DNA of 64,000 bases, taken from Sphingobium sp. JS3065 (lineage in GTDB: Bacteria > Pseudomonadota > Alphaproteobacteria > Sphingomonadales > Sphingomonadaceae). The translations under genes were made by a program, and so were the position numbers. The notes beneath the pieces are model-generated. The model did no database searches and had not been told where the DNA came from. It worked only from the letters and a program-made list of their open reading frames with translations. Positions 2,587 through 50,904 of the stretch are shown here, one piece after another (positions within the stretch are counted from its first letter, which is position 1; every line of letters starts with the position of its first letter). The stretch spans positions 124,001 to 188,000 of the forward strand of contig NZ_CP102666.1 of NCBI RefSeq assembly GCF_026427355.1, in the 5' to 3' direction.

Positions 2587-2782
2587 GGACACTTTTGGTG
2601 AATAAGGCGGGCTAGGGGTGTGCCGTTGTGATGGCTGCTAGATGAGGGGTGTATCAGGATGCTTACAAGCTCAGGTTGGCGGCCGTTGACAGCTAGCGCG
2701 TGTTGGCGCGGCCGTGGCTGATGCGAGTTAGATTGCCATTGGTGTGTGAATGTATCGCGCCGTGGGCGCTGGAAGATGTTTG

Positions 2783-4141
2783 ATGATTATGCCTGCAGTT
2801 AGGCATTTTTTGCCGGGAAGGCCAACGGCCGCCTCCTTGTTGTTTGTGACCTTTGTCTCATTGCTCCTGGCGGCGGGAGGAGCGTCTCATGCGGACGTCA
2901 TGGGTCAGGTCGTGACTCGCTCGGTCGCATGGCTGACGCTGGTCATCGCGATCCTGTGCGGCCTGAAGCCGGACATTATTAAAACCGGAGCGGTGGCATG
3001 GTTGTTCCTGGCGGCGCTCCTGCTCGTTCTGCTACAGCTGGTGCCGCTACCACCCGCTGTCTGGACGCTGTTACCGGGCCGCGGACCGTTTCTCGAAAGT
3101 GCTCTTGGCGCTCCGCCCTGGCGTCCCTGGGCGATCGTGCCATGGGCCACGATGAATGCGGCATCCTCGCTCATTGTTCCTGTGGTCACGTTCTATCTTC
3201 TGAGCGTTCTTAACGATGATGAAAGGGAGCGTCTCCCGGGTATTCTGCTCGGCATGATCTTTCTGTCGGCGCTGGTCGGATTGTGGCAGTTTTGCGGATT
3301 TTCCTTCAACCATCCCTTGGTCAACGACACGGATGGAAGCGTCAGCAGCATCTTTGCCAATCGCAACCATTTTGCCCTTTTCCTGGCGATGGGATGCCTT
3401 GTTGCACCTGTCTGGGCCTTTTCGGGACAGCAGGGCCGTCATTGGCGGGCGCCTGTCGCATTCGCCCTCGTCATCCTATTTGCGCTGACCATTCTTGCGA
3501 CAGGATCAAGATCCGGGATCCTGACGGGCCTTCTGGCCATCGGGATGGGACTGATGTTCAGCTGGCGCGACATCCGGCACGCGTTTCGCCGCGCGCCACC
3601 TTGGGTATTCCCGGTGTTGGTCGTCGCAATCATCGGCATCATCGCGCTTCTTGTCCTGATCAGTATTGCTGCTGACCGGGCTGAATCCATCAATCGCGCC
3701 ATCGAGCTGGACCCCGGAGAGGACATGCGCCGCCGCGGGCTTCCCACCGTACTGGCCATGATCGGCGCCTATTTCCCGGTAGGAACGGGCTTTGGCAGTT
3801 TCGATCCGATGTTTCGGATATATGAACCGCTTGAGCTGTTGAAGCGAACCTATTTCAATCATGCGCATAATGATTTTCTGGAGATCCTGCTCGATGGCGG
3901 ATTGCCCGCGCTGGTGCTGCTTCTCGTGGCGCTGGGATGGTATATCCGCGCGAGCATTCGAGCATGGCGGGCCGATCCGGCCTATTATGGATTGGCCCGG
4001 ATCGGGTCGGGAATGCTGCTCCTGATTCTTGTCGCCAGTGTTTTCGATTACCCGGCACGAACCCCCATTTTTATGGCGATTATTGTGATTGCTGCGATTT
4101 GGCTCGGTCAGGGCGCATCACGCATCGCTTTACGCAGGTAG
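2783..4141 (+). CDS. O-antigen ligase/polymerase family membrane protein
   Basis: Predicted polytopic inner-membrane protein of the O-antigen ligase (Wzy/WaaL, Wzy_C) family, which polymerises or ligates polysaccharide on the periplasmic side. It has about ten to twelve hydrophobic segments and the family region around FANRNHFALFLAMG and LATGSRSG. A large periplasmic loop near the C-terminal third contains HAHNDFLEILLDGG, matching the H-x-H-N-x-(F/Y) feature of the family. The start at 2783 is preferred because GGAAG lies 7 bases upstream; an ATG at 2750 would add 11 residues. It is the first gene of a rightward run with the Wza- and Wzc-like genes, so polymerisation of an exported polysaccharide is the likely job. 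Polymerase versus ligase is not decidable from sequence. Confidence 0.85.
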   Translation: MIMPAVRHFLPGRPTAASLLFVTFVSLLLAAGGASHADVMGQVVTRSVAWLTLVIAILCGLKPDIIKTGAVAWLFLAALLLVLLQLVPLPPAVWTLLPGRGPFLESALGAPPWRPWAIVPWATMNAASSLIVPVVTFYLLSVLNDDERERLPGILLGMIFLSALVGLWQFCGFSFNHPLVNDTDGSVSSIFANRNHFALFLAMGCLVAPVWAFSGQQGRHWRAPVAFALVILFALTILATGSRSGILTGLLAIGMGLMFSWRDIRHAFRRAPPWVFPVLVVAIIGIIALLVLISIAADRAESINRAIELDPGEDMRRRGLPTVLAMIGAYFPVGTGFGSFDPMFRIYEPLELLKRTYFNHAHNDFLEILLDGGLPALVLLLVALGWYIRASIRAWRADPAYYGLARIGSGMLLLILVASVFDYPARTPIFMAIIVIAAIWLGQGASRIALRR

Positions 4142-4191
4142 GATCAGCATCTAATGCAGATCCAATTCTTTTGGTCGCGGAATTCATATAC

Positions 4192-4902
4192 ATGCGGAAA
4201 ATTCTTGTTTCACTGATTATTGCGACGAGTGTCGCTGGATGTGCAGGAATGCCTCCGCCCCAGCCGAGCGGGCAGCTGACGGTCGTGCCGGACAGCCAGG
4301 GGCTTCCAGCCCCCCATCGCAGCGATCTGGGCGCGGCTGACCGGCCGGCCCTCATCGGTCCGCTCGACACGATCGGCGTGGACATTTTCAATGTTCCCGA
4401 GCTCAGCCGGGAAATGCAGGTCGATGCAAGCGGGCGCATTTCCATGCCGCTTATCGGCACGGTCGATGCCCGCAACAAGACCGCCGACGAACTGGCGCGG
4501 ACCATCGAGAATGCGCTCAAGGGGCGCTATGTTCGCAATCCCCAGGTGACGGTCAATATCAAGAGTTCGGTCAGCCAGGTGGTCACGGTCGATGGCGAGG
4601 TGACCGAACCGGGGCTCTATCCTGTCACCAACCAGATGACGCTGATGCGGGTCATCGCCTCGGCCAAGGGTCTCAACGAGTTCGCCAAGCAGGAACAGGT
4701 GGTGATCCTGCGCACGGTCGACAACCAGCGCATGGCTGGCCTGTACGACCTCGGCGCGATCCGCCGTGGGGCTTATGTCGATCCGCCCATTTATGCCAAT
4801 GACGTGGTGATCGTTGGCGATTCCCCGGAACGCCGGCTGTTCCGCGACATCGTTTCCCTGGCGCCTCTGGTCGCCGCTCCGCTTGTCGCCATCTTGCGCT
4901 GA
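4192..4902 (+). CDS. Polysaccharide export lipoprotein, Wza/GumB family
   Basis: Outer-membrane polysaccharide export protein. The N-terminus is a lipoprotein signal with lipobox VAGC (Cys17), followed by the Poly_export domain (LIGPLDTIGVDIFNVPEL and MPLIGTVDARNKTADEL) and one SLBB-type domain (TVDGEVTEPGLYPV). At 236 residues it is the short GumB-like form. The ATG at 4192 is chosen because it gives the lipoprotein signal; the same frame stays open upstream into the ligase gene but has no signal peptide there. The next gene, a Wzc-like co-polymerase, begins 13 bases after the stop. The two proteins probably form the trans-envelope export channel for the polymer made by this locus. Confidence 0.92.
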   Translation: MRKILVSLIIATSVAGCAGMPPPQPSGQLTVVPDSQGLPAPHRSDLGAADRPALIGPLDTIGVDIFNVPELSREMQVDASGRISMPLIGTVDARNKTADELARTIENALKGRYVRNPQVTVNIKSSVSQVVTVDGEVTEPGLYPVTNQMTLMRVIASAKGLNEFAKQEQVVILRTVDNQRMAGLYDLGAIRRGAYVDPPIYANDVVIVGDSPERRLFRDIVSLAPLVAAPLVAILR

Positions 4903-4915
4903 GGCCTGCAGTCAC

Positions 4916-7120
4916 ATGAATAGCATTGTTTCCAAGCTTGGCGGCGACACGGCATTGGCTGCGCTGCATCAGTCGCAATCCGAAGAAGCTTCGGTCCCCA
5001 TCCTGCGCCAGTATCTGCGGATGGCCATGCGATGGCGCTATGTCATCCTGGGGGCAGTCGCGATCTGCTTCCTGATTGGGCTGGTGGTCACGCTTTTGAT
5101 GACCCCCCAATATACGGCGTCCTCTACCATCGAGATCTCGCGGGAATCGGACAAGGTCACCGATCTGCAAGGGGTCGAGCGCGATGCGAGCATTGCCGAC
5201 CAGGAATTCTACCAGACGCAATATGGATTGCTGCAGTCCCGCTCGCTCTCAGAACGCGTTGCAGCCGAGCTCAAGCTCATCGATTCCCCGAAATTTTTCG
5301 AGATGTTCGATTTCGAGAGCGAAGACCCTGCCTTCAAGCTGGTCAATGGGCGCTTTGCACCCGCCGGCCGCGCGACCCGGCAGCGCGTGGCAGGTGAAAT
5401 TCTCCGCAAGCATCTGAGCGTCAATCCTACGCGGCTGTCACGTCTGGTAGATGTGAGTTTCACCAGTCCAGATGCTGCTTTTTCCGCGAAGGTCGCCAAT
5501 GTCTGGGCCCAGAATTTCATCCAGACCAATCTCGACCGCAAGATCCAGGCGACGTCCTATGGCCGCAATCTTCTGCAGGGCCAATTGGCCCAGCTCAAGC
5601 AGAAGCTAGATGAATCCCAACGCCAACTGGTATCCTATGCGTCGCACGCGAAAATCATCAATCTGCCCGCCCAATCGGGCAGTGGGGATTCAAGCGCCGA
5701 GCGATCCATCGTGGTCGATGATCTGGCGGCCCTCAACGGCGCGCTCGCGCAGGCTACCGCCAACCGGATCGCGGCGCAGACCCGCTATGAGGAAAGTGGC
5801 AAGGCCGGGGCGTCCGCCCAGGCGCTGAGCAACACCGCGATCAACGGTCTGCGGCAACGCCGGGCCGAACTGGCGGCCGAATATCAGCGGCTGATGACGC
5901 AGTTCGAGCCGGGATATCCTGCCGCTGACGCGGTGAAGGCGCAGATAGACCAGCTCGATAGCAGCATCGCGAAAGAGGAAGGCCGCGTCTCCAATTCGCA
6001 ATTGGCTGACTATCGCCAGGCCCAAGAACAGGAACAGGCTCTCAAAGCGAAGGTCGAGCAACTTAAGGGAGACTATCTCGACCAGCGCCGCAGGAGCATC
6101 CAGTATAATATCTATCAGCAAGAGGTCGATACCAACCAGGCCCTCTATGATGGCTTGCTGCAGCGATACAAGGAGATCGGCGTAGCCGGCGGTGTAGGCG
6201 TCAATAATATCGCTGTCGTTGATCCGGCGCAGGCGCCTAAGCTGCCCTCGAGCCCCAGGCTACTCATCAATCTTGCAATCGCCATTCTGGCGGGTCTCGG
6301 GATCGGCGCTGCCCTCGCATTCGGTCTTGAGCAGATCGACGAAGGGATCACTGACCCCGCAGAGGTCAAGCGAGCGCTCGGGCTGCCGTTGCTGGGTTCC
6401 ATTCCCAAGGTGGACGCGGCGCCCAGAGACATCCTGCTCGACCGCAAATCGGATCTGGTGGATGCCTATCTTGCAGTACAGACCAATCTGTCCTTTTCGA
6501 CGGATCATGGCGTTCCCCGTGCCTTCGCCGTCACCTCGACGCGCCCGAGCGAAGGCAAGTCGACAACGTGCCTTGCGCTGGCCTCCACGCTGGCCCGCGC
6601 CGGGAAAAACATCATCCTGGTCGATGGTGACATGCGGAATCCGTCCATCCATCAACTGGGGGGTGTTGCGAACCGGCGTGGTCTCAGCAATTTCCTGAGC
6701 GGGGAAGACGATATCGCGTCGCTGCTGTTCTCGATGGAGGATCTGGGTTTCGTGGCCATGTCAGCCGGGCCGCTTCCGCCCAATGCAGCGGAGCTTTTGA
6801 CCGGCGATCGCCTCGCGCATCTGATAGGCCGCCTGCTTGAAACCTATGACCATGTGATTATCGATTCCCCGCCGGTCATGGGTCTGGCGGACGCGGCGCT
6901 CATCGCCACAAGGGTGGAAGGCGTCATTTACGCTGTGGAGTCGCATGGCATCCGCACCAATCTTGTCAAGGATGCGATCGGTCGTCTTCTCACGGCCAAC
7001 GTCCGGATCATCGGTAGTGTTCTGACGAAGTTCGATGCGAAGAAGGCGCATTATGGCTACGGCTATGGCTATGAATATGGCTACAGCTATGGCCGCAAGA
7101 CTGAAGCCCAAGCGGCCTGA
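4916..7120 (+). CDS. Polysaccharide co-polymerase with BY-kinase domain, Wzc/GumC/ExoP type
   Basis: Inner-membrane Wzc-like protein controlling polymer length and export, with an autophosphorylating bacterial tyrosine kinase fused at the C-terminus. In order: a cytoplasmic N-terminus, a membrane helix (about 40-62), a Wzz domain with a long coiled-coil region (about 210-420), a second membrane helix (about 455-475), and the kinase with Walker A RPSEGKST (about 541-548), Walker A-prime VDGDMRNPS and Walker B VIIDSPP. The last residues (about 711-729) are a tyrosine cluster, YGYGYGYEYGYSYG, the expected phosphorylation tail. The start at 4916 follows the exporter stop by 13 bases; the frame is open further upstream but overlaps that gene. 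Length 734 is normal for a fused Wzc. Confidence 0.93.
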   Translation: MNSIVSKLGGDTALAALHQSQSEEASVPILRQYLRMAMRWRYVILGAVAICFLIGLVVTLLMTPQYTASSTIEISRESDKVTDLQGVERDASIADQEFYQTQYGLLQSRSLSERVAAELKLIDSPKFFEMFDFESEDPAFKLVNGRFAPAGRATRQRVAGEILRKHLSVNPTRLSRLVDVSFTSPDAAFSAKVANVWAQNFIQTNLDRKIQATSYGRNLLQGQLAQLKQKLDESQRQLVSYASHAKIINLPAQSGSGDSSAERSIVVDDLAALNGALAQATANRIAAQTRYEESGKAGASAQALSNTAINGLRQRRAELAAEYQRLMTQFEPGYPAADAVKAQIDQLDSSIAKEEGRVSNSQLADYRQAQEQEQALKAKVEQLKGDYLDQRRRSIQYNIYQQEVDTNQALYDGLLQRYKEIGVAGGVGVNNIAVVDPAQAPKLPSSPRLLINLAIAILAGLGIGAALAFGLEQIDEGITDPAEVKRALGLPLLGSIPKVDAAPRDILLDRKSDLVDAYLAVQTNLSFSTDHGVPRAFAVTSTRPSEGKSTTCLALASTLARAGKNIILVDGDMRNPSIHQLGGVANRRGLSNFLSGEDDIASLLFSMEDLGFVAMSAGPLPPNAAELLTGDRLAHLIGRLLETYDHVIIDSPPVMGLADAALIATRVEGVIYAVESHGIRTNLVKDAIGRLLTANVRIIGSVLTKFDAKKAHYGYGYGYEYGYSYGRKTEAQAA

Positions 7121-8364
7121 TGAAAGGGGCAAGAATCCGGCGGCAGCGACGTGCTCGACCCAATTGGGTCGCGCGGCTCGCACTGGCGGCGATTGCGGCC
7201 CTGCTGGGCTATTTCTCAGTTATGCAGTCGCTGGCCCTGGTGTTGCCGAACAGCAGGATCGAAGAGGCCTACGCCCTTGCGCCCGGCAATGGTCATGTAG
7301 CAGCGCGTTTCTCGCAGCAACTAAGTGGTCCCGAGGCCTCGCTTCAAGACCGTGCGCGCGCCGTCGCTGCGGCGCACGAGGCCTTGCGGCATGATCCGAC
7401 CGCGGTTGAGGCTGTCGCAACGCTTGGGCTTGATGCAATGCTCAGGGGCGATGAGTCCAAGGCAGACCGTCTGCTCGCCTATTCGCAAAGAATGTCGCGG
7501 CGGGATCTGCGCACGCAGCTCACGGCAATCGAACTTGCTGTTGCGCGCGACGATATCCCAGGCGCCCTTCATCATTATGACATCGCGTTGCGGACCAAGA
7601 AGGATGCGCCAGGCCTCCTCTTTCCCGTGCTGGCCTCGGCGCTTGGTGATGACGCGATCCGGACGGGTCTCGTGCGGACGCTGGCCGATCGGCCGATCTG
7701 GGCCCTCGACTTTGTCCGCCATGTCGCGCGAAGCGACGCCGATCCGGTTGCGGCCGCCGCCTTTTTCCGCGCTTTGACAGCGCAGCGCTTTCCGGTTCCC
7801 GATAGCGCCAGCTCTGCTGTCGTGAACAAGCTTTTGACGGGGGGGCTGTCCGAGGATGCCTGGTCCTATTATGCCGCGACCCGCCAGGGGGCTGACAGGC
7901 GCAGTTCGCGCGATCCCAATTTTAGGAGCCTTCTGGAAGCGCCAAGCGCTTTCGATTGGGTTGCCATGAGCGGTACGGGTGTGTCGACGGCCCTTGTTCC
8001 TGATCCGGCAAACGGACTTTTCGACTTCACGGTCTCGATGGGCAATGGGGGGGCGCTGTTGCAGCAGCTGCAGATGCTTCCCCAAGGCGATTATATACTG
8101 GAAGGGCGCAGCCGCGGCATTGAGCAGCCCACGGGATCGCGGCCCTACTGGACCGTCCGCTGCCGGAACGGGCAGGAGGTTGCGCGGGTTGAGGTGACCA
8201 ATTCATCACAGGCGAAGGGACGCTTCGAGGGACAGGTCCGCATTCCGGCAAATTGCCCTGTCCAGACGCTGGCACTGGTGGCGCGTTCCTCTGATGATGC
8301 CGCGGGGGTGACGGGACAGATCACCCATATCCTGCTACGTCCTGCGAATGCGCGCCGGTCATGA
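7120..8364 (+). CDS. Membrane-anchored TPR-like protein of the polysaccharide operon
   Basis: Function unknown. The ATG overlaps the kinase stop by one base (TGATG), so the two genes are probably translationally coupled. The 414-residue protein has an Arg-rich cytoplasmic tip, one membrane helix (about 17-40), helical repeats that look TPR-like (about 50-220), and a C-terminal beta-rich part (about 270-405) with several Cys. I infer a periplasmic scaffold working with the Wza/Wzc exporter. The evidence for that is gene position, not a recognised family. Confidence 0.7.
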   Translation: MKGARIRRQRRARPNWVARLALAAIAALLGYFSVMQSLALVLPNSRIEEAYALAPGNGHVAARFSQQLSGPEASLQDRARAVAAAHEALRHDPTAVEAVATLGLDAMLRGDESKADRLLAYSQRMSRRDLRTQLTAIELAVARDDIPGALHHYDIALRTKKDAPGLLFPVLASALGDDAIRTGLVRTLADRPIWALDFVRHVARSDADPVAAAAFFRALTAQRFPVPDSASSAVVNKLLTGGLSEDAWSYYAATRQGADRRSSRDPNFRSLLEAPSAFDWVAMSGTGVSTALVPDPANGLFDFTVSMGNGGALLQQLQMLPQGDYILEGRSRGIEQPTGSRPYWTVRCRNGQEVARVEVTNSSQAKGRFEGQVRIPANCPVQTLALVARSSDDAAGVTGQITHILLRPANARRS

Positions 8365-14554: not shown

Positions 14555-14665
14555 GCATGGTGCTCCCGATGGGATGAACCGCACAAGTTTCGAGCAATGG
14601 GCAGGGCTTGACAAGCTTAAACATGCCGTTCTCTCCTTGAACTCCCAAGCAATGGCGAGGCATTC

Positions 14666-15547
14666 ATGCGGGACATTCTGGCATTCATCGCTGTCATCTT
14701 TCTTCTCCCTGGCACGACATCTGCGCAAACCCTCGACGTGGGACGCGCGGTCCAGCTGATCGAGATGAGAAATCCGGCGCAGCTTCTTGTGGGGCAGGAC
14801 CCTGCGATCCTGGCGGCTCGGGCACAGAAGAGCGAAGACCTGTCGCGGCCTGCTTTCCAGATGTTTCTTGTGGGGCAGGCGGAAACGCAAAAGCCGCCAC
14901 TGTCCCAAGGATCAACGATCGGCGACCAAGACATGTACGGTCAAGCCCGCCCCACGGAGGACGGGATCGCGGCGCTCGAGATCCCCTTGTGGATGAGAAG
15001 CGGACCGTCCGGTCCCCAATTCTCGCCGGGCGACTGCTCGCAGATGGCCTATCGTCCATCGGGCTTCCTCAAAGCGGACGCAGAACGGAGGCGGGCGGCC
15101 CATTTTGGGCTTATGCGGGAGGCGGCCTGCCAACATGGCATACCGGTGGGACTTTTCGATGCCATGATCATCAGCGAGAGCCGCTATAACCCTTCCGTCG
15201 TTTCGCCCAAGGGTGCTTTCGGTTTGACGCAGCTCATGCCGTTGACGGCGGCGGAGCTAGGCGTCAATCGCTATGACAGCGCGGAAAATCTCAAGGGAGG
15301 GGCTCGATATCTGCGGGCCCAGCTGGACCGCTACGGCGCCTATCATCTTGCTCTGGCGGCCTATAATGCAGGACCCGGCCGCATCCGCAACGGCGCGGTG
15401 CCGCAGATTGGGGAAACCCAACGCTATGTTGCCCGGACGCTCGCCAACTGGGATCGGCTTGGCCGGGTGCAGGATCGTGCCTTGATCAATGACATGGAGC
15501 CATCTCGGCCAGCCCCGCGCAGAATGGCGATCGTTACCCTCTTCTGA
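14666..15547 (+). CDS. Lytic transglycosylase, VirB1/SLT type
   Basis: Periplasmic peptidoglycan lytic transglycosylase, likely opening the wall for an envelope machine. The 293-residue protein has a signal peptide (1-20, ending SAQ), a low-complexity middle, and a C-terminal SLT domain (about 145-270). The catalytic Glu171 is in IISESRYNP, followed by GAFGLTQLMP and ALAAYNAGPGRI, all hallmark SLT motifs. It is divergent from the hypothetical gene ending at 13262 with 111 bases between them. Given the F-type transfer operon at 24-44.6 kb, it may serve conjugation as VirB1-like proteins do, but it lies about 8.5 kb away and outside that operon. Confidence 0.88.
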   Translation: MRDILAFIAVIFLLPGTTSAQTLDVGRAVQLIEMRNPAQLLVGQDPAILAARAQKSEDLSRPAFQMFLVGQAETQKPPLSQGSTIGDQDMYGQARPTEDGIAALEIPLWMRSGPSGPQFSPGDCSQMAYRPSGFLKADAERRRAAHFGLMREAACQHGIPVGLFDAMIISESRYNPSVVSPKGAFGLTQLMPLTAAELGVNRYDSAENLKGGARYLRAQLDRYGAYHLALAAYNAGPGRIRNGAVPQIGETQRYVARTLANWDRLGRVQDRALINDMEPSRPAPRRMAIVTLF

Positions 15548-15765
15548 AGCCATTTCCTGGCTCATGGCACTGCGTTGTCGGTCAACATGACCGTCATGCC
15601 TTGGCCATCTACGCACGCAAGGTGGACCTGCGGTGAGGCGGCGACCCTTGCAGTCCTTCAGGAAGGCCGCCGCCTGCGCCTCCCGATAGCAGCCGCGAAT
15701 GACGCGAAGATGAACGAGGATAAAACGCGTTATGGGGTGGAGAGTGGATGGCTACCGGCGACGGT

Positions 15766-16266
15766 TCAACGACCGTGGAACACTAGCAACTCGCGTCCGG
15801 GGCGGTCGCCCTGCTGTCCTGTAGCGCGGAAGCCTAGCTTGTGCAGAAGGTTCCAGGAACCCTCGTTTCCGGTTCTACATTCCGCCGTCACCTGCCGGTT
15901 GGGGTGCAGACGCTGCAATTGTGCTATGACGCCTGCCACGGCTTCGGCCGCATATCCCTGGCGCTGGAAATGTGAACCGATCCAATATCCTACTTCCAAC
16001 CGATCGCGACCGTGTGCGTGGATCCCCACAACCCCGATCAGGTCACCCTGCCTCCAGACACCAAGAAAGCAGTTCGCATCGTTATTGCTGGCGATCAACG
16101 CCTCCGCCTCGCGGACGGTGAAGGGTGAGGGAAGGAAATGAACAACATCCGTTATTGCAGGATCATCCGTGAGGCAAGCGACGGCGGGCGCATCCGTCAT
16201 TGCAAGTGGCCGGATGTTAAGGCGCTCAGTGCTGAGAGGCGAAAAGGCGCAGAGATGTGGATTCAT
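15766..16266 (-). CDS. GNAT-family N-acetyltransferase, RimJ/RimL-like
   Basis: Predicted acetyl-CoA-dependent N-acetyltransferase. The 166-residue frame from 16266 has the RimJ/RimL order: LSTERLNIRPLAMTDAPAV at the N-terminus, central DLIGVVGIHAHGRDRLEVGYWIG, the acetyl-CoA loop HFQRQGYAAEAV (Q/R-x-x-G-x-A), and the C-terminal NEGSWNLLHKLGFRATG. The frame is open to 16356, but no convincing ribosome site supports that longer start. Substrate is unknown. It stands alone between the transglycosylase and the DprA-like gene. Confidence 0.82.
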   Translation of the reverse strand: MNPHLCAFSPLSTERLNIRPLAMTDAPAVACLTDDPAITDVVHFLPSPFTVREAEALIASNNDANCFLGVWRQGDLIGVVGIHAHGRDRLEVGYWIGSHFQRQGYAAEAVAGVIAQLQRLHPNRQVTAECRTGNEGSWNLLHKLGFRATGQQGDRPGRELLVFHGR

Positions 16267-16489
16267 GGTCGCGCCATAACTCTCTTCAGAAGTTCCGCAC
16301 AGGGGCGTTTCCCGCCGCGACGATCGTGGCCCGGCGCTTACCCACGAGTGATCCATGCCGCCATCCAGCCAGTTTGACGATGTTCCTTATTTGTTCTATG
16401 CTCTTCGCAGCAATTTTTCATAGGCTGGCCGGGGCGATGATTGACTCCCGCAATCCCAGCGGCTTTGGTTGACCGGAAGGGGACACGCC

Positions 16490-17395
16490 GTGCAGCAGCA
16501 CACTCTTTGGAACGTTGACGACCGCGCGGAGCCTATTGCCGCGCCGTTCGACGCTGTTCTCGAACTCGGCGCATATGAAGCGCTCTGGTCGGAACACAAT
16601 GCGAGTTTCAAGAGCATCGCCGCCACATTTCGCAATAGTCCTGGAGCGCGTCCCTCCGACCTGGTCCCTGAGAACGAAGCGCGGGAAATCGGACGGCGCG
16701 TGCTGGAGAAGATTCGCGCTCGCACGCCTCACAGATTTGATGTTCGCGTTCATGGCGAATGGGAGTATCCAGAACGGCTCAGAGATGCGACGGACCCAAT
16801 CGAGTTATTCTATTTTCAAGGCAATTGGGCACTCGCAGCTGAGCCGGGGGTGGCGGTCGTCGGCACTAGAAAGCCATCCGAGGAAGGTCGTGCGCGCGCG
16901 GCCTATGTCGCCAAGCGTCTGACGCAGGATAGCCTCACCGTTGTGTCTGGCTTGGCTGAAGGCATTGACACGGCAGCTCATCAGGGGGCGATAGCAGCAG
17001 GCGGGCAAACGATCGCCGTGATCGGCACGCCCTTGGGGCAAGCCTATCCCAAAGCGAACGCTGCACTCCAGGATCTGATCGCGAAAGATTATCTGTTAAT
17101 CAGCCCGATCCCAGTGGAGCGCTACGACGCACAAAACTTCCGAACGAACCGGTTCTTTTTCCCCGAACGCAACAAAGTCATGTCCGCGCTCACCAAAGCT
17201 ACAATCATCGTGGAGGCCGGTGAGACGTCAGGAACGCTTGTCCAGGCGAAGGAGGCGCTCCGACAAGGGCGGAAGCTTCTTATCATGAAGAGCTGTTTCG
17301 AGAGGAGTGATTTGACCTGGCCTGCTCGGTTCGAGAAGGAGGGCGCGATCCGAGTGGATAGTTATGACGAAGTCAGACGACAGCTGGTCGGGTAA
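16490..17395 (+). CDS. DprA/Smf-like Rossmann protein of a two-gene module
   Basis: DprA/Smf family protein. Classical DprA binds single-stranded DNA and loads RecA during transformation. The start is GTG at 16490 with GGAAGGGG about 8 bases upstream. Of 301 residues, the core (about 110-285) carries VGTRKPS (124-130), SGLAEGIDTAAH (153-164), FPERNKVMSAL (224-234) and EAGETSGTL (242-250), all DprA signatures. The usual N-terminal SAM and C-terminal winged-helix domains are missing; instead there is a divergent N-terminal region of about 100 residues. It overlaps a phosphoribosyltransferase gene by 32 bases, so the pair is probably co-translated. Association with a PRTase rather than topA or competence genes suggests a conflict or defence role, which is inference. 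Confidence 0.85.
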   Translation: MQQHTLWNVDDRAEPIAAPFDAVLELGAYEALWSEHNASFKSIAATFRNSPGARPSDLVPENEAREIGRRVLEKIRARTPHRFDVRVHGEWEYPERLRDATDPIELFYFQGNWALAAEPGVAVVGTRKPSEEGRARAAYVAKRLTQDSLTVVSGLAEGIDTAAHQGAIAAGGQTIAVIGTPLGQAYPKANAALQDLIAKDYLLISPIPVERYDAQNFRTNRFFFPERNKVMSALTKATIIVEAGETSGTLVQAKEALRQGRKLLIMKSCFERSDLTWPARFEKEGAIRVDSYDEVRRQLVG

Positions 17396-18029
17396 GCCTC
17401 GCAAAATCACAGAACTCGAACGGGGAGATCATCATCATCTGACTGAGGGTGATGAGTGCTACTTTGTTGGCGAGTATACGCCGCGCGCAGGCTTTGCCCA
17501 CAGCGCCACCAACCAGTTGATTTCGAATTTAAAGAAGAAACCAAGCACGCGCGGCACGTTCCAGTGGAAATACAAGGTTCAGGCTATCGGGGATGCTGCG
17601 GCGGCACTCGCCAGCAGTCTGAATCCGGCATCCCTTGGTTCGTGCGTATTTGTGCCGATACCGCCTTCCAAGCTGCCAGATGACGCTGAATATGACGACA
17701 GGATGGCTAAGGTTTGTAGGGCTATCCATCCCACGGCTAACGTTCTCGAGCTAGTCACTTTGGCTCAAGCTCGCGATGCGGCGCACGAAAATGATGATAC
17801 GCGCGACCCGGATGCCCTACGGGCGAAGCTTCGCCTTGCAGTGTCTATGCTGGAAACACTTCCACCTATCGTTTTTCTCGTCGATGACATGTTGACCACA
17901 GGGTGCAGCTTCAGGGCTTGCAAAGACCTTATTCTGGAACACGCCCCGGAGTCGCGCGTGATTGGCTTTTTCATTTCGCGGCGCGTCCCAACGAGTGGCT
18001 TTGAGGCGATCAACATAGATGATTGGTGA
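17364..18029 (+). CDS. Phosphoribosyltransferase-domain protein paired with DprA-like gene
   Basis: Type I phosphoribosyltransferase fold, distantly ComF-like. The PRPP-binding loop VFLVDDMLTTGCS (170-182) matches the 13-residue family signature completely, including the double Asp. Upstream, VFVPIPPSKLPDDAEYDDRM (95-114) resembles the ComF-type segment before the active site. No ComF zinc ribbon is present at the N-terminus. It starts 32 bases before the end of the DprA-like gene, with no better downstream start. Catalytic residues look intact, so an enzyme acting on a nucleotide, base or PRPP is likely. The substrate is unknown. A role with the DprA-like partner, perhaps in phage or plasmid defence, is inferred from coupling. 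Confidence 0.85.
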   Translation: MTKSDDSWSGKPRKITELERGDHHHLTEGDECYFVGEYTPRAGFAHSATNQLISNLKKKPSTRGTFQWKYKVQAIGDAAAALASSLNPASLGSCVFVPIPPSKLPDDAEYDDRMAKVCRAIHPTANVLELVTLAQARDAAHENDDTRDPDALRAKLRLAVSMLETLPPIVFLVDDMLTTGCSFRACKDLILEHAPESRVIGFFISRRVPTSGFEAINIDDW

Positions 18030-19206
18030 TCGCGGCACACTGCCCTCATGGCGCGAACAGTCACATCAGCACATGAGCGACGAACGCATCGCGATCGCCA
18101 TGATCCGTTCTGCGCCACAGCGGTTGCCGCTCGACCTGTCGTACGAGACCGGCATTTTGCGCTGAAAAGAGCTTCGTACTGCTGCGCGAGGTACCCAATA
18201 GCGGCTGCGGTTGGCACCGCTGTAGCATTGATGACAGGACGGGCCTCGCCTTCCCTCCTTTGCCCTGCGGTTTGCCTCGCCCCATGCCGGACGTGAACCA
18301 AGGGCGCGATGAGCAGGGCAATGGCGGCGAAAAAAGCCCCGACGCTGTGTCATGAAGCCGCTGTAAGCCGCCAGCGTCGGGACAGGCTGGCCGGGAGGAA
18401 AGGGCCCCGTTAACCGGCCGTCGCGACACAGCCCAGACTGTCTGTGTGAGAGCTGAGTCGTTGCGATCATTAGAGATTTGACGCGGCAGAGTCCAAGACC
18501 CCAGACCTGATAGGGCGAAATTTGGTCACGGCGCGTTGGATGGCGGCCAGCGATTGGGTGATTATCAGCGATCAAAGTGCCCCGGCGCAGCGCCATGCCA
18601 CTGAGCATGCAAGGCGCGCACCGGGACAGATGGACGACCGAGGAGAGTGGCCGGCCATAGACTCAACTTGCCGATGGGAAGGCTGAGGCTGAGTCTTCGC
18701 ACAGAGTAACCCACGGAAAAAGCAGAGCGCAAGGTGTCGGCTCCTGGCCTGGGAGGCCGGCGATGAGGGGGCTGTTTTGCACCTTTTATGCAAAGGGCGG
18801 GTCGCCATGTCATAACGTCCGGGCGCTTTGAGCGCATCACCTACCCCTCAGCGGTCGCGATGATATGGGCGCGCGGATCGGGAGGCGCGTTCTTGAGACC
18901 CTGCCTTCCGCAGGGCGGCGAGAGCAGCCGCTAATGGAGCGCGTGCCCTGCTGTAAGCGCACCGCACTTGGGGCTCCTCCCGTGCCTGTCTGTATCCTCG
19001 CGGCGTATCCCGTAATCGCGCTGTTGCCCAATGCGGCCGTATCGCGACGCGCCGATCGCGAATTCGGCGCGGATTTTTCGCAAAGGATGGTTCGATGCAC
19101 GAGGTTGCCCACCTGCCAGCGGAAAGGATCGCTTGATCCGATCGGCTCGCCCGGGAGGTGGGCCGCGCCTCCTGGCGGCGTCAGACATGGGCATCAATAC
19201 CCGCGA
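18030..19206. other. 1.2-kb region with no recognisable gene
   Basis: Between the PRTase gene and the 3' end of glmM. Open frames on both strands (for example 18066-18608 and 18565-18840, minus) have Arg/Pro/Ser-rich shadow-like translations without domains. The only clear structure is a terminator-like hairpin on the minus strand at 18331-18381. The region could hold an untranslated RNA, decayed genes, or the long 3' region of glmM. Confidence 0.4.
18331..18381 (-). terminator. Minus-strand terminator-like hairpin with T-run
   Basis: Read on the minus strand, CCCGACGCTG and its complement form a perfect 10-bp stem (18372-18381 with 18338-18347) around a 24-base loop, followed immediately by GCTTTTTT. 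This is the form of an intrinsic terminator. No coding gene ends near it; the nearest minus-strand gene is glmM, ending about 830 bases away. It may end the glmM transcript or an unrecognised small RNA. Confidence 0.65.
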
Positions 19207-20547
19207 TCATGCAGCAGCCATGGCCACGGCGTTGCAGATCCGCTCGACCACGTCCTTGACCTGGTCTTCCCGGTCGCCTTCGGCCATCACGCGGATCACA
19301 GGTTCCGTGCCTGAAGGCCGGATCACCAGCCTGCCGCCGCCATGCAGTTCCTGTTCGGCCTGTGCAATGACGCGCTTGACCGCGTCATGCTCGAGGGGCT
19401 TGCCGCCTTTGAAGCGGACGTTTCTGAGCAGCTGCGGCACGGGGTCGAACTGGTGCAGCAGCTCGCTCGCCGGCTTGCCTGCGCGGACCAGGGCAGCAAG
19501 CACCTGCAGCGCCGCGACCGTGCCGTCGCCAGTCGTCGCATAGTCCGACAGGATCATGTGCCCTGACTGTTCACCGCCGACATTATAGCCTCCCTCGCGC
19601 ATCTTCTCCAGCACATAGCGGTCGCCTACCCTGGTCCGTTCCAGCCTGATGCCGTGCGCGGCCAGATGGCGCTCCAGGCCCAGGTTGGACATGACCGTGG
19701 CTACCAGGCCGCCGCCGCGCAGGGCGCCTGCCCGCGCAAAATCTCCTGCGATCAACGCCATGATCTGGTCGCCGTCGACGATCGCGCCATGCTCGTCGAC
19801 CACGATCAGCCGGTCGGCGTCGCCGTCGAGCGCAATGCCGATATCGGCGCCCGAGGAGAGCACCGTTTCCTGCAGCAGACGCGGCGCGGTGGACCCGCAC
19901 TGGTCGTTGATATTGGTGCCGTTGGGTGTAACCCCGATCGCCACCACTTCTGCTCCCAGTTCCCAAAGCGCGGAGGGCGCTACCTGATAGGCTGCGCCAT
20001 GGGCGCAATCGATCACGATCCTGAGGCCGTCGAGCCTGAGGTCAGCCGGAAAACTGGATTTGACGGCATGGATATAACGGCCCCGGGCGTCTTCGACGCG
20101 GCGGGCCCGGCCGATATCCTGGGATGCTGCGAGCGGGATGTCCTGGTCGAGCATCGCCTCGATCCTCAGCTCATCCTCGTCCGAGAGCTTGTACCCGTCC
20201 GGACCGAACAGCTTGATCCCATTGTCATAATAGGGATTGTGGCTGGCCGAGATCATGACGCCAAGGTCCGCGCGCATCGAATGGGCGAGCAGCGCTACGG
20301 CGGGGGTGGGGATCGGCCCGAACTGCACCACGTCCATGCCGACGGCGGTGAACCCCGCGACCAGCGCATTTTCCACCATATAACCCGATCGGCGCGTATC
20401 CTTGCCGATCACCACGCGATGGCGGTGGCTGCCACGCTGAAAATGCTTGCCGGCGGCCATGCCGACCCTCATGGCGAGGTCAGCATTCATCGCCCATTCG
20501 TTGGTTCGTCCACGAATGCCATCCGTGCCGAAATATTTCCTGCTCAT
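19207..20547 (-). CDS. glmM: Phosphoglucosamine mutase
   Basis: GlmM interconverts glucosamine-6-phosphate and glucosamine-1-phosphate on the path to UDP-GlcNAc, feeding peptidoglycan, LPS and polysaccharide synthesis in the cytoplasm. The 446-residue length is typical. Visible motifs are the N-terminal [10 protein letters not shown] (4-13), the phosphoserine loop [19 protein letters not shown] with catalytic Ser102, the metal loop DGDADR (about 241-246) and the C-terminal phosphate-binding [15 protein letters not shown]. No usual companion (folP, ftsH, glmU) is adjacent. It is either the housekeeping copy or a second copy supporting the polysaccharide locus; the window alone cannot decide. 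Confidence 0.97.
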
Positions 20548-20805
20548 CTTTGCTGCCTCAATGGTCCGAAATCTTCATCGATTCCTATATCAATCTTTGT
20601 TCGACATTCTACCGGCGAGCCGTCATCGTCGCATGAAAGGTGAAGCATGCGATCTGCAGCGCCTATCGCGGTTTGCCTTCATTTGAATGACAGGGAAGCG
20701 GGGAGTTTTCATGATGGCCGGAGAGCCCGGAGGAACTGTGGCAGATGCGGCAGCCGGTCGCGGCAATGCAACGCCCGCTCATGTCCCGAGCCGCGGAGGC
20801 GTGGC

Positions 20806-47161: not shown

Positions 47162-47425
47162 ATCTGCCCGCCTGTTCCTGTTATGGTCCAGCTATCGCAA
47201 CTCATGTCGATGGCTACAAGGTCCTGCGGCGAACGGGTAGCAGCGATGCGGGTCTGGGGGTGTGCGCTCATGCATTCCACCGGCAAATGCACAGCGCTTT
47301 ACCTTTCGCCCGGTCAGCAGAGCTGGACGCGAACGGTAAAGACCAGCCTCGAGACACTTGTAAAAGCGCCCCTTTGCATTGACGCGGAGCAATCTTCATG
47401 CCTTATCTAAATCGGTAACGGGGGG

Positions 47426-47451
47426 TGTATCGCGAACCATTTCGCGATACA
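47426..47451. promoter_or_regulatory. Perfect 11-bp palindrome directly before the ATPase gene
   Basis: TGTATCGCGAA (47426-47436), four bases, then its exact complement (47441-47451), ending two bases before the ATG at 47454. A GGGGGG run ends at 47425. It may be an operator for autoregulation of the downstream pair, or an mRNA hairpin that controls access to the start. A TTGACG that could be a -35 element lies at 47379-47384. Confidence 0.7.
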
Positions 47452-47453
47452 TA

Positions 47454-48542
47454 ATGGACATGGCATCAGCGCAGCAGCTCATAGGTCTCGTAAAGAGCCA
47501 CGCGGAGGGGGATTCCGATCGCTTCTTCGATCTGGCGATGCAGCTGTCGGCTGCGGAGGAGCAGAAGGGCCACAAGCGCCTGGCCGAGACGCTTCGACAG
47601 TGGGCTAATGCCGGACAGACGCCACCAGCCTCGCACAAGCCGAACCTCACGCCGATCGCAGCTCCGCGCGGTGATCTCGCCGAGTTTCTGTTCGCCTCCT
47701 ATCCCAGCGAGCGCCTGAACAGCGTCATCCTGCCAACGCGCATCGAGGAAGAGCTCGCCCACATCGTCGTCGAGACCCGCATGCGCGAGAAGCTCGAGGA
47801 AAAGGGCCTCAAGCCGCGGCGGCGGATCCTGCTTTCCGGGCCTCCGGGCACGGGAAAGACAATGAGCGCGCACAGTCTCGCCGGGGAGCTCCAGTTCCCG
47901 CTCTTTTCGGTGATGCTGCATGGCCTCATCACCAAATATATGGGCGAGACTGCCCAGAAGCTGAAGCTTGTGTTCGATGCCATCAAATCGACACGCGGCG
48001 TCTATCTCTTCGACGAGATAGACGCTCTTGCTGCAGCGCGCGGCGACGGTAATGACGTCGGCGAGGCGCGCCGGGTCCTGAACTCGTTCCTCCAGTTCCT
48101 TGACGAGGACACCGGCCCTTCAATCGTCGTCGCCACGACCAATCTCGCCGAGATCCTGGATCGAGCGGTCCTGCGACGGTTCGATCTCGTGCTCTCCTAC
48201 GAGTTGCCCGATGCAGCGTCGATCCGTCAGGCTCTCGAGCGTCGCCTCATAGGCTTTTCCCACGCGCGGCTGTCTTGGAAAAAGGTTACGGATTGCGCGA
48301 TCGGCCTGTCGACGGCCGACGTCGTGGCTGCCGCAGAGGATGCGGCCCGTCGCGCGGTTCTGAGCGATCGCAACAGCATAACGACCGTCGATCTGGTGAA
48401 CTCGCTGGAGCGTCGTCGATCGCTGCAGGGGCTGGGAAGAAGCGCGAATGCCACGGAATCTACGTCACTTTCTCCTGAAGGATCTCGGAAAGCCGCACCC
48501 CTTTCGCGCAAAGGGCGGGGGCAGCGGCAAAGCGCCCAGTGA
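47454..48542 (+). CDS. ietA: AAA+ ATPase, IetA-like partner of a subtilase
   Basis: AAA+ ATPase of the IetA type, which in Agrobacterium Ti-plasmid work acts as antitoxin to a subtilisin-like partner. The 362-residue protein has a helical N-terminus, Walker A SGPPGTGKTMSAH (about 128-140), Walker B VYLFDEIDAL (about 183-192), sensor-type VVATTNL and an arginine-finger region RAVLRRFD. The start at 47454 follows a perfect palindrome; there is no ordinary ribosome site, so the transcript may be leaderless or hairpin-controlled. A second ATG two codons later is possible. The gene overlaps the subtilase gene by 95 bases. Confidence 0.85.
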   Translation: MDMASAQQLIGLVKSHAEGDSDRFFDLAMQLSAAEEQKGHKRLAETLRQWANAGQTPPASHKPNLTPIAAPRGDLAEFLFASYPSERLNSVILPTRIEEELAHIVVETRMREKLEEKGLKPRRRILLSGPPGTGKTMSAHSLAGELQFPLFSVMLHGLITKYMGETAQKLKLVFDAIKSTRGVYLFDEIDALAAARGDGNDVGEARRVLNSFLQFLDEDTGPSIVVATTNLAEILDRAVLRRFDLVLSYELPDAASIRQALERRLIGFSHARLSWKKVTDCAIGLSTADVVAAAEDAARRAVLSDRNSITTVDLVNSLERRRSLQGLGRSANATESTSLSPEGSRKAAPLSRKGRGQRQSAQ

Positions 48543-50904
48543 CGTCCTTGATCGTAGCGGTCACGCGCAGGCTCTCCTGCAGGCGATCGATCAGCTTCCT
48601 GCCATAGCGACGGACGGCCTTCCCGGGGTCTATCTGGAAGTCAAAGGCCGACCGGGCGAGCCACTCGCCAAGGATAGTCTGGGATCAAGCGGTATCGCGC
48701 TATTGCGCACCGGGGCTGAAGTCATCAACGGAAACGCTACAGAAACCGCCACCGTTTTCGCCACCGCCAAGGGCGTGCAGAATCTTCGCAAGAAGATCGA
48801 GAAATTCGAGACCGAAGACACGCCGGCTAAGGAAGAAGACGGCAAAATCATCCCCGGCCGTCCTAGGAACGCCAATCTCGTTCAGAGCCTGGCGGCTATC
48901 ACCGAAGCGGGTCTGCGAGCGCTTTGGCGTGGCCCGCAGGACAAATTCCCCGCGAACGCTGGTGCGACGCACTGGGAAATCTGGCTCGAACCCAGCGAGG
49001 CAGAAGCCTTTATCGCCCAGGCCGGCGCATATCATGTCGAGATCGGGGCCGATCGCCTGCACTTTCCCGAAGACGTCGTCGTCATCGGCCGCGGGACACG
49101 GGACCATATTGCACTCGCCGTAAGACGTCTTGGTGCCGTGCGGGCCCTCGCGGCGCCTGCGGTGACCGCCGATCTGTTCGATGCCATGGACGTGCCCGAA
49201 CAAGCGGCCTGGGTTCAGGATCTCATCCAGCGCACCACCTTTTCGGGCGCCGTCAATGGCGGATATGTCACCCTTCTCGATACTGGCATCAGCCGCGCCC
49301 ATCCGTTGACCGCGCCGGTCCTCGCCGCGCAGGACCGCCACGCCGCAGACCCGGCCTGGGGGCTGGACGACGTCAAGGGGCACGGCACCCAGCTTGCCGG
49401 TCTCGCATTGTTCGGTGATCTGACGCTCAATCTCCAGTCGACGATGCCGGTCACCGTCTCGCATCGCCTGGAGTCCGTGAAGCTAATCCCTGACGCCGGC
49501 GCAAATCCGCATCATCTGCTGGGCGTCGTCACGCGAAGGGCGATCAATATCGTCGAACAGACGGTTCGCCGCCGGACTTTTACCATGGCGGTCACGACCG
49601 ACGAGGACACGCCGCATGATGGCGCCCCGACGTCCTGGTCAACAGAAGTCGATCAGCTCGCTGCGGGCGTATCGGGGGCCCGCACAGATCCTCGGCTGAT
49701 GCTGATCTCTGCGGGCAACACCAACAATTTCACGTTCACGGCGGGTCATTATCTCGACAGGTGCGATCATCCCGACAATGAACTGGAGTCGCCGGCGCAG
49801 GCCTGGAACGCCATCAGCGTGGGAGCCTATACCGAGAAGACGATGCTTCCGCCGGCCGAGGGCCTCAACAGCGTTGCGGCTTTCGGCGACCTGTCGCCCA
49901 GCTCTCGAACCGCATCCTGGACTTCGACCTGGCCGCTCAAGCCCGATATCGTGCTCGAGGGCGGAAACTGGGCTGCTGGCGCGGCGCCTCCACCGCTGCG
50001 GCATGGCTGGCTGTCTCTTCTCACAACCCATCATGCCTATCCGCAACGCTCGTTCAGCTTCACCCACGACACGAGCGCAGCGACGGCTATCGCCGCGAAG
50101 CAAATCACTGAACTCTGGTCGGAGTATCCGCAGCTCTGGCCCGAAACTATCCGGGCGCTGTATGTCGCATCCGCACGGTGGACGCCGCAGATGCGGTCGC
50201 ACCTACCTGCTCATTCGAACAAGGGAAGCTATGCCCGGCTGTTTCAGCGCTATGGCTATGGCGTTCCCGATCTGGCACGCGCCCATCGGAGCGCGTCCAA
50301 CGCTCTGACCCTGATCGTTCAGGACGTCATCATTCCCTATGGCCTTTCCGAGAAGACCGGCGGTGACGTCCACAAGGAGATGCGACTCTTCTCGTTGCCA
50401 TGGCCGGTTGAGGAGCTGCGCAAGCTCGGCAACGCGAACATAACCCTGCGTGTTGCCCTTAGCTCCTTTGTCGCACCAAATCCGGCGGAGGCATCGCGTG
50501 GCTCGCGATACCGCTACGCATCGCATAATCTTCGGTTCAAGCTGAACCGTGCCGGAGAGAATGCGCAGCAGTTCATGGCGCGCATCAGCAAAGCCGTCGA
50601 ACCTGCCGGCCCCCAGGTCGATGAAGACGATCTGTGGGAGTTCGGGAGTGTGAGACGCGACGTCGGCTCACTCCATATTGACCAGTTGACCTGCAAGGCC
50701 TCGGACCTTGCCCGTCGCCATCTGCTTGCCGTTCACCCCGTAGCGGGCTGGTGGAAATCCAAGACGATCCTGAAAGATGGAGAGAAAGTCGCCCGGTTCG
50801 CCCTTGTCGTCGAGATCGACACCCAGGGCATCGAGGCAGATCTTTATACCGAGGTGCAAACCGCAGTGGCTGTCCTCAACGCGACGCAAGCAATCATTAT
50901 CTGA
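48448..50904 (+). CDS. ietS: Subtilisin-like serine protease, IetS-like
   Basis: S8-family protease, the toxin-like partner of the preceding ATPase. The 818 residues have an N-terminal region (NLRHFLLKDLG, then a Gly-rich segment and DVLDRSGHAQALLQ) that resembles the IetS N-terminus, supporting the start at 48448 despite the 95-base overlap with the ATPase gene. The catalytic triad is Asp278 in VTLLDTGISRAHP, His312 in GHGTQLAG and Ser543 in HDTSAATAIAAK; the oxyanion Asn is in LISAGNTNN. There is no signal peptide, so it acts in the cytoplasm. ATPase-subtilase pairs of this kind stabilise plasmids and are counted among anti-phage systems, as I recall. Confidence 0.87.
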   Translation: MPRNLRHFLLKDLGKPHPFRAKGGGSGKAPSDVLDRSGHAQALLQAIDQLPAIATDGLPGVYLEVKGRPGEPLAKDSLGSSGIALLRTGAEVINGNATETATVFATAKGVQNLRKKIEKFETEDTPAKEEDGKIIPGRPRNANLVQSLAAITEAGLRALWRGPQDKFPANAGATHWEIWLEPSEAEAFIAQAGAYHVEIGADRLHFPEDVVVIGRGTRDHIALAVRRLGAVRALAAPAVTADLFDAMDVPEQAAWVQDLIQRTTFSGAVNGGYVTLLDTGISRAHPLTAPVLAAQDRHAADPAWGLDDVKGHGTQLAGLALFGDLTLNLQSTMPVTVSHRLESVKLIPDAGANPHHLLGVVTRRAINIVEQTVRRRTFTMAVTTDEDTPHDGAPTSWSTEVDQLAAGVSGARTDPRLMLISAGNTNNFTFTAGHYLDRCDHPDNELESPAQAWNAISVGAYTEKTMLPPAEGLNSVAAFGDLSPSSRTASWTSTWPLKPDIVLEGGNWAAGAAPPPLRHGWLSLLTTHHAYPQRSFSFTHDTSAATAIAAKQITELWSEYPQLWPETIRALYVASARWTPQMRSHLPAHSNKGSYARLFQRYGYGVPDLARAHRSASNALTLIVQDVIIPYGLSEKTGGDVHKEMRLFSLPWPVEELRKLGNANITLRVALSSFVAPNPAEASRGSRYRYASHNLRFKLNRAGENAQQFMARISKAVEPAGPQVDEDDLWEFGSVRRDVGSLHIDQLTCKASDLARRHLLAVHPVAGWWKSKTILKDGEKVARFALVVEIDTQGIEADLYTEVQTAVAVLNATQAIII

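Follow-up and report, generated by a model that had tools for sequence, protein, structure and literature searches.

A DprA-like gene overlaps a phosphoribosyltransferase gene

In a 64,000-nucleotide stretch of DNA from Sphingobium sp. JS3065 (contig NZ_CP102666.1, positions 124,001 to 188,000; hereafter the window), two overlapping genes on the forward strand encode a DprA-family protein and a ComF-like phosphoribosyltransferase (PRTase). By PADLOC naming, the pair is ShosTA, a known anti-phage toxin-antitoxin type. The shosA-like gene for the DprA-family protein, the putative antitoxin, spans positions 16490..17395 and encodes 301 amino acids from a GTG start, while the compact shosT-like gene for the PRTase, the putative toxin, spans 17364..18029 and encodes 221 amino acids from an ATG start. 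The two genes share 32 nucleotides (17364..17395, forward strand), which suggests that their translation may be coupled; the overlap is 38 nucleotides long in four Rhizobiaceae plasmids and 4 nucleotides in an E. coli plasmid. An earlier reading of the bare sequence (the original prediction) had given the same open reading frames, coordinates and 32-base overlap, and the translations agreed with it, including all four of its motifs (VGTRKPS, SGLAEGIDTAAH, FPERNKV and VFLVDDMLTTGCS).

The first in-frame start of the DprA-like reading frame ending at 17395 is a TTG at 16469. The GTG at 16490 was preferred, since GGAAGGGG lies just upstream of it and M1 is nearly invariant in a 20-row alignment (A3). 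A promoter-like match (TTGACG-17-TATGCT, 16374..16402, forward strand) precedes the pair but is weak evidence, the pattern having two matches counting both strands against a mean of 0.8 in shuffled sequences. Repeats and terminators were sought around the pair, and nothing convincing was found. The G+C content is 55.5% at 17001-18000, compared with 62-66% over the downstream glmM gene.

The first protein probably retains the N-terminal part of DprA but lacks the winged helix

The DprA-family match of the first gene is far beyond chance. Pfam DNA_processg_A covers residues 84-289, the Rossmann domain (E 4.5e-55), and the PADLOC ShosA model PDLC03961 covers residues 24-298 of 301 (E 7.8e-93); the protein also matches PADLOC PsyrA (E 1.3e-30). 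It falls below the NCBIfam TIGR00732 dprA cut-off (153 vs 191.15 bits), and a separate dprA on contig C1 of the same genome gives a stronger Pfam match (244 vs 187 bits).

The original prediction had described a DprA core stripped of both its SAM and winged-helix domains. The N-terminal part of DprA is SAM-like, and the predicted structure of the window protein has N-terminal helices at residues 22-32, 40-48 and 61-78; residue 25 of the model aligns to residue 4 of pneumococcal DprA and residue 20 to residue 14 of Rhodopseudomonas DprA. The loss of the SAM domain is thus probably wrong, and the modelled fold indicates that the N-terminal part of DprA is probably present. The absence of the winged helix was upheld, as the model stops where it aligns to residue 301 of Rhodopseudomonas DprA, beyond which that protein presumably carries its C-terminal winged helix.

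Structures of ShosTA are available for a large form of the system (ShosA: 8zva, E. coli APEC O1; ShosT: 8zvb, 8zvc and 8zvd). The window ShosA matches the fold of 8zva; by score, it stands nearer to pneumococcal DprA (113 bits) than to the solved ShosA (71 bits). A tree was built from 76 DprA-like proteins (37 compact ShosA, 7 large ShosA and 32 others, namely 30 housekeeping-type DprA and two from the viral contigs L060 and L061), midpoint-rooted and with supports read after re-rooting. Compact ShosA forms one clade (printed support 90) and large ShosA another (printed support 100), and one origin of the two groups is not resolvable from two in this tree. The L060 and L061 proteins group with large ShosA; on these contigs, the DprA-like protein has as its neighbour a PRTase whose open frame of ~400 residues fits poorly to both the compact and the large group.

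The second protein is a compact PRTase with an intact PRPP loop

The match of the second protein to Pfam Pribosyltran is weak (E 0.0025, 17.6 bits, under the 26.3-bit cut-off), while the PADLOC ShosT model PDLC03962 covers residues 15-210 of 221 (E 4.5e-42). This model is broad: it also matches large ShosT (180 bits) and gives weak matches in 293 of 298 genomes of the family and in 13 of 14 control genomes. Therefore, only strong matches were counted in whole genomes. The large-ShosT model PDLC03012 was absent among the PADLOC matches of the window PRTase up to E 1.

The loop predicted to bind phosphoribosyl pyrophosphate (PRPP) reads VDDMLTTGCS (residues 173-182). As the original prediction held, it is intact: it is of the DDxxTTG type, and D174, D175, T178 and G180 are invariant across 45 alignment rows. 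This loop type occurs in 94 of 101 compact proteins, whereas at least 105 of the 120 large proteins have TQG or TEG (counted from the ten commonest types shown).

In a fold comparison, residues 4-209 of the window ShosT model aligned to residues 160-364 of the 432-residue ShosT 8zvc. Because the alignment spans only this part of 8zvc, the window protein was taken to lack the HAD-like N-terminal region. Searches of the PDB with compact ShosT, as a single sequence and as profile A1, returned no ShosT entry up to E 10, and the link between compact ShosT and these entries was made by fold comparison only. The profile comparison gave 45% over 123 columns for compact against large ShosT (49% in a first run with five large sequences), 96% over 130 columns for compact ShosT against ComF and 94% over 152 columns for large ShosT against ComF, the ComF profile consisting of seven sequences assigned by motif. 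The comparison weakens the view that the window pair equals the solved ShosTA in every respect.

The best structural match of compact ShosT is ComFC, the competence PRTase. This likeness fits a DprA-ComFC-like helper pair on the plasmid, one that would contain no toxin and would process single-stranded DNA entering the cell, as in conjugation. Such a helper would agree with the F-type transfer region on the same plasmid and with reports that H. pylori ComFC binds single-stranded DNA and that DprA is an interaction partner of ComFC in Campylobacter jejuni and pneumococcus (PMC9005727). Yet the genome holds another dprA, related pairs are found on phages, and compact ShosA forms its own clade; in addition, a second, weaker PDLC03962 match in the same genome may be a housekeeping comF. 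We therefore consider a role as competence or transfer helper improbable.

The two genes travel together on mobile elements

To describe gene coupling, all fetched loci were used except 22 short ones, which were repeats of longer loci or held a housekeeping dprA only. This set contains 54 places with compact ShosT, of which 51 are non-identical (close relatives counted separately) and 47 have at least 900 nucleotides upstream. Compact ShosA lies directly upstream on the same strand in 46 of these 47 loci. The sole unpaired case, in a Paracoccaceae assembly (L029:7911-8597), has no ShosA within the fetched 8-kb flanks on each side. With this pairing and a separate, stronger dprA in the genome, the homologues are not mainly single genes in housekeeping contexts, the situation that the original prediction had named as speaking against it.

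The pair is patchily distributed. Compact ShosT was found in 3 of 94 genomes of the same genus (E 1e-20), and compact ShosA in 5 of 298 sampled genomes of the family (E 1e-60), with ShosT beside all five. At the level of the class, 8 of 385 genomes, the window's own included, carry compact ShosA, accompanied by a full or near-full ShosT in seven and by a fragment in one (G609). A housekeeping dprA/comF pair was rejected on two grounds, the other dprA elsewhere in the genome and the rarity of ShosT in the genus. The best 10 plasmid records for ShosA cover 86% or more of the query, to which they are 53-100% identical; ShosT is present over 87-100% of its length in eight of them, as a 30% piece in one and not at all in one (E 1e-5). 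The compact pair also occurs on Burkholderia phage Mana (Peduoviridae) and Pseudomonas phage Riah, and 24 of 26 viral-contig loci are of the compact type. When the pair of the E. coli plasmid was used as query, at least 80% of it was found in 37 of 5426 complete E. coli genomes and only a part in 646 more; these partial copies adjoin an IS30 transposase in 13 of the 20 rows listed.

Since broken or partial relatives are known and the pair is rare, the window copy might be a decaying, non-functional remnant of plasmid cargo. However, both of its genes are open, the conserved residues are kept, and a second Sphingobium plasmid, 3pYBL2-3, encodes ShosA and ShosT proteins that are 99.7% and 100% identical, which makes decay very unlikely.

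The neighbourhoods of the compact pair were scanned with 117 open reading frames from 13 loci (169 were listed for these loci, and 220 for 18 loci), leaving out the pair itself and small or doubtful frames and keeping the large ShosTA of L074. Forty PADLOC families were matched at E 1e-10, with one protein each in the 25 rows shown, and the matches include a CBASS cyclase, a DRT reverse transcriptase, MzaA, Mads and large ShosTA; the scan was uncontrolled, and no enrichment is claimed.

Compact and large ShosTA occur side by side

Non-identical compact loci that extend at least 2.3 kb to each side of ShosT number 39, and in six of them (L024, L025, L068, L069, L074 and L095) the compact pair is adjoined by a large ShosTA, intact or broken. 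The two systems are convergent in four Rhizobiaceae plasmids and in tandem in two Sphingomonadaceae genomes (G189 and G695); the large toxin of L069 is interrupted, and an IS66 transposase separates its pieces. The six composite loci are not six independent events but look like two arrangements. For comparison, of 398 genomes sampled from the phylum, one yielded large ShosA (E 1e-50), a count from a single-protein query that divergent copies may escape. No second, large ShosTA was found in the window: a hidden copy was rejected, as the sole match to the large profile is the window ShosA, which cross-matches it with 88 bits.

It is possible, though we put this forward only tentatively, that the compact pair is no trimmed ShosTA and instead represents a second DprA-ComF toxin-antitoxin lineage, which evolved separately and has a chemistry of its own, with an ordinary PRPP-loop PRTase without a HAD-like part. 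A competence duo would then have become a defence module, which in Alphaproteobacteria joined large ShosTA at least twice into four-gene loci, convergent in Rhizobiaceae and tandem in Sphingomonadaceae. If so, these composite loci could act as two-toxin defence units with different triggers.

The pair is carried by a conjugative plasmid

The window belongs to an assembly of 5.1 Mb in five contigs. The 6 kb tested around the pair (14600-20600) are 99.8% identical to plasmid 3pYBL2-3 of Sphingobium sp. YBL2, which is typed as conjugative with a MOBF relaxase, and a genome of the same genus (G729) matches 18 kb of the window at 99.2%. Upstream of the pair lie genes for a GNAT acetyltransferase and a lytic transglycosylase, and F-type transfer genes are found on the plasmid from about 24.7 kb. 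Downstream, the pair is adjoined by a plasmid copy of glmM (phosphoglucosamine mutase, 19207-20547), to which the glmM of Sphingobium plasmid CFD-2 is 82.5% identical. Between shosT and glmM, ~1.2 kb (18030-19206) are free of annotated genes in the record of the near-identical plasmid, and no remnant of a large ShosTA was found there. Exopolysaccharide-type genes, among them genes for an O-antigen ligase domain and a polysaccharide tyrosine autokinase, are located at 2750-8364.

About 29 kb from the pair, a gene for an IetA-like ATPase (47379-48542, PADLOC E 5.7e-69) overlaps one for an IetS-like subtilase (48448-50904, E 1e-25), and 47379-50904 is a probable second defence system, IetAS, on the same plasmid. 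This neighbour bears on the alternative that the pair serves plasmid maintenance, with ShosT killing plasmid-free daughter cells and any anti-phage effect being secondary or absent in this host. The location on a conjugative plasmid and the relatives on Rhizobiaceae plasmids would suit such an addiction system, but other relatives reside on chromosomes, phages and viral contigs, where addiction is not needed. Taken together with the second named defence system, this makes plasmid maintenance an unlikely main function.

A probable compact ShosTA-type defence module

The pair is a real and correctly located example of a known defence system; what deserves follow-up is its compact architecture, together with the composite loci. 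We consider it probable that the pair is a toxin-antitoxin defence module of a compact ShosTA type and forms part of the cargo of a conjugative Sphingobium-type plasmid. Computation established the family membership, the gene coupling, the folds, the intact PRPP loop and the patchy spread on mobile elements. By analogy with large ShosTA and RqlHI, we infer the toxicity, the antitoxin role, the trigger and the outcome for the compact form, with ShosA as binding partner and antitoxin of the ComF-like PRTase toxin. ShosA and ShosT would be made from the overlapping genes, and in the resting cell ShosA may bind and restrain ShosT or repair its effects. Phage infection or another DNA stress would tip the balance between the two and free ShosT, which, via its intact PRPP site, could upset the PRPP and purine-nucleotide pool. 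This disturbance might lead to DNA damage and growth arrest and stop the spread of the phage.

Two observations weigh against this interpretation: one of the ShosT structures reaches no higher score than an unrelated PRTase, and the PRTase domain of RqlH alone reportedly gave no growth inhibition (PMC4670107).

As originally predicted, the DprA-like and PRTase genes form a two-gene conflict-type module, and the link of such pairs to conflict is confirmed by a report of a protective pair. The association is not new, since ShosTA has already been named and has PADLOC models and PDB structures. Rousset et al. (2022; PMC9122126) report that a DprA-PRTase pair, which they cloned from a hotspot of P2-like phages, confers protection against both T7 and lambda; citing shosTA and rqlHI, they propose that DprA senses phage DNA and the PRTase is the effector. 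The direction in which a DprA sensor feeds a PRTase effector is hypothetical; a review that cites Pu et al. (2025) describes ShosT as the toxin that disturbs purine metabolism, DNA-binding ShosA as the antitoxin that counters it and T7 Gp0.7 as the trigger (PMC12593503). Among Pseudomonas Pf phages, a survey lists ShosTA in one phage, where a link to resistance was inseparable from Kiwa (PMC11878078). Our literature search found no bench test or description of a compact, HAD-less ShosT.

With the window pair, the ShosTA family, whose mechanism is just being worked out, gains a compact member that is intact and located on a plasmid. Its toxin without a HAD-like part and with a different PRPP loop suggests that the solved form is not representative. 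As essentially a one-PRTase-domain protein, the 221-residue ShosT offers a simpler system for asking how PRTases of the ShosT type use PRPP. The likeness to DprA and ComFC, in turn, makes an origin of defence from competence testable.

Comparison with known systems

Compared with large ShosTA, the window toxin is about half as long (221 vs 432 amino acids), and the HAD-like N-terminal region is found only in the large form. ComFC of H. pylori (7p0h) carries a four-cysteine zinc finger before its PRTase domain, whereas the window ShosT has none, with C32 as the single cysteine in residues 1-45. Moreover, the window-type pair is patchy and on mobile elements, unlike ComFC with its partner DprA in natural competence. 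A further likeness is to PsyrTA, whose PsyrA model the window ShosA matches, and to RqlHI, in which a DprA-like protein is reported to restrain a PRTase-containing toxin (PMC4670107): RqlI co-precipitates with RqlH, an interaction that is lost when RqlH has no PRTase domain, and PRPP-site mutants lose most of the toxicity. RqlH, however, is described there as a RecQ-like helicase fused to a PRTase, and the window pair includes no helicase.
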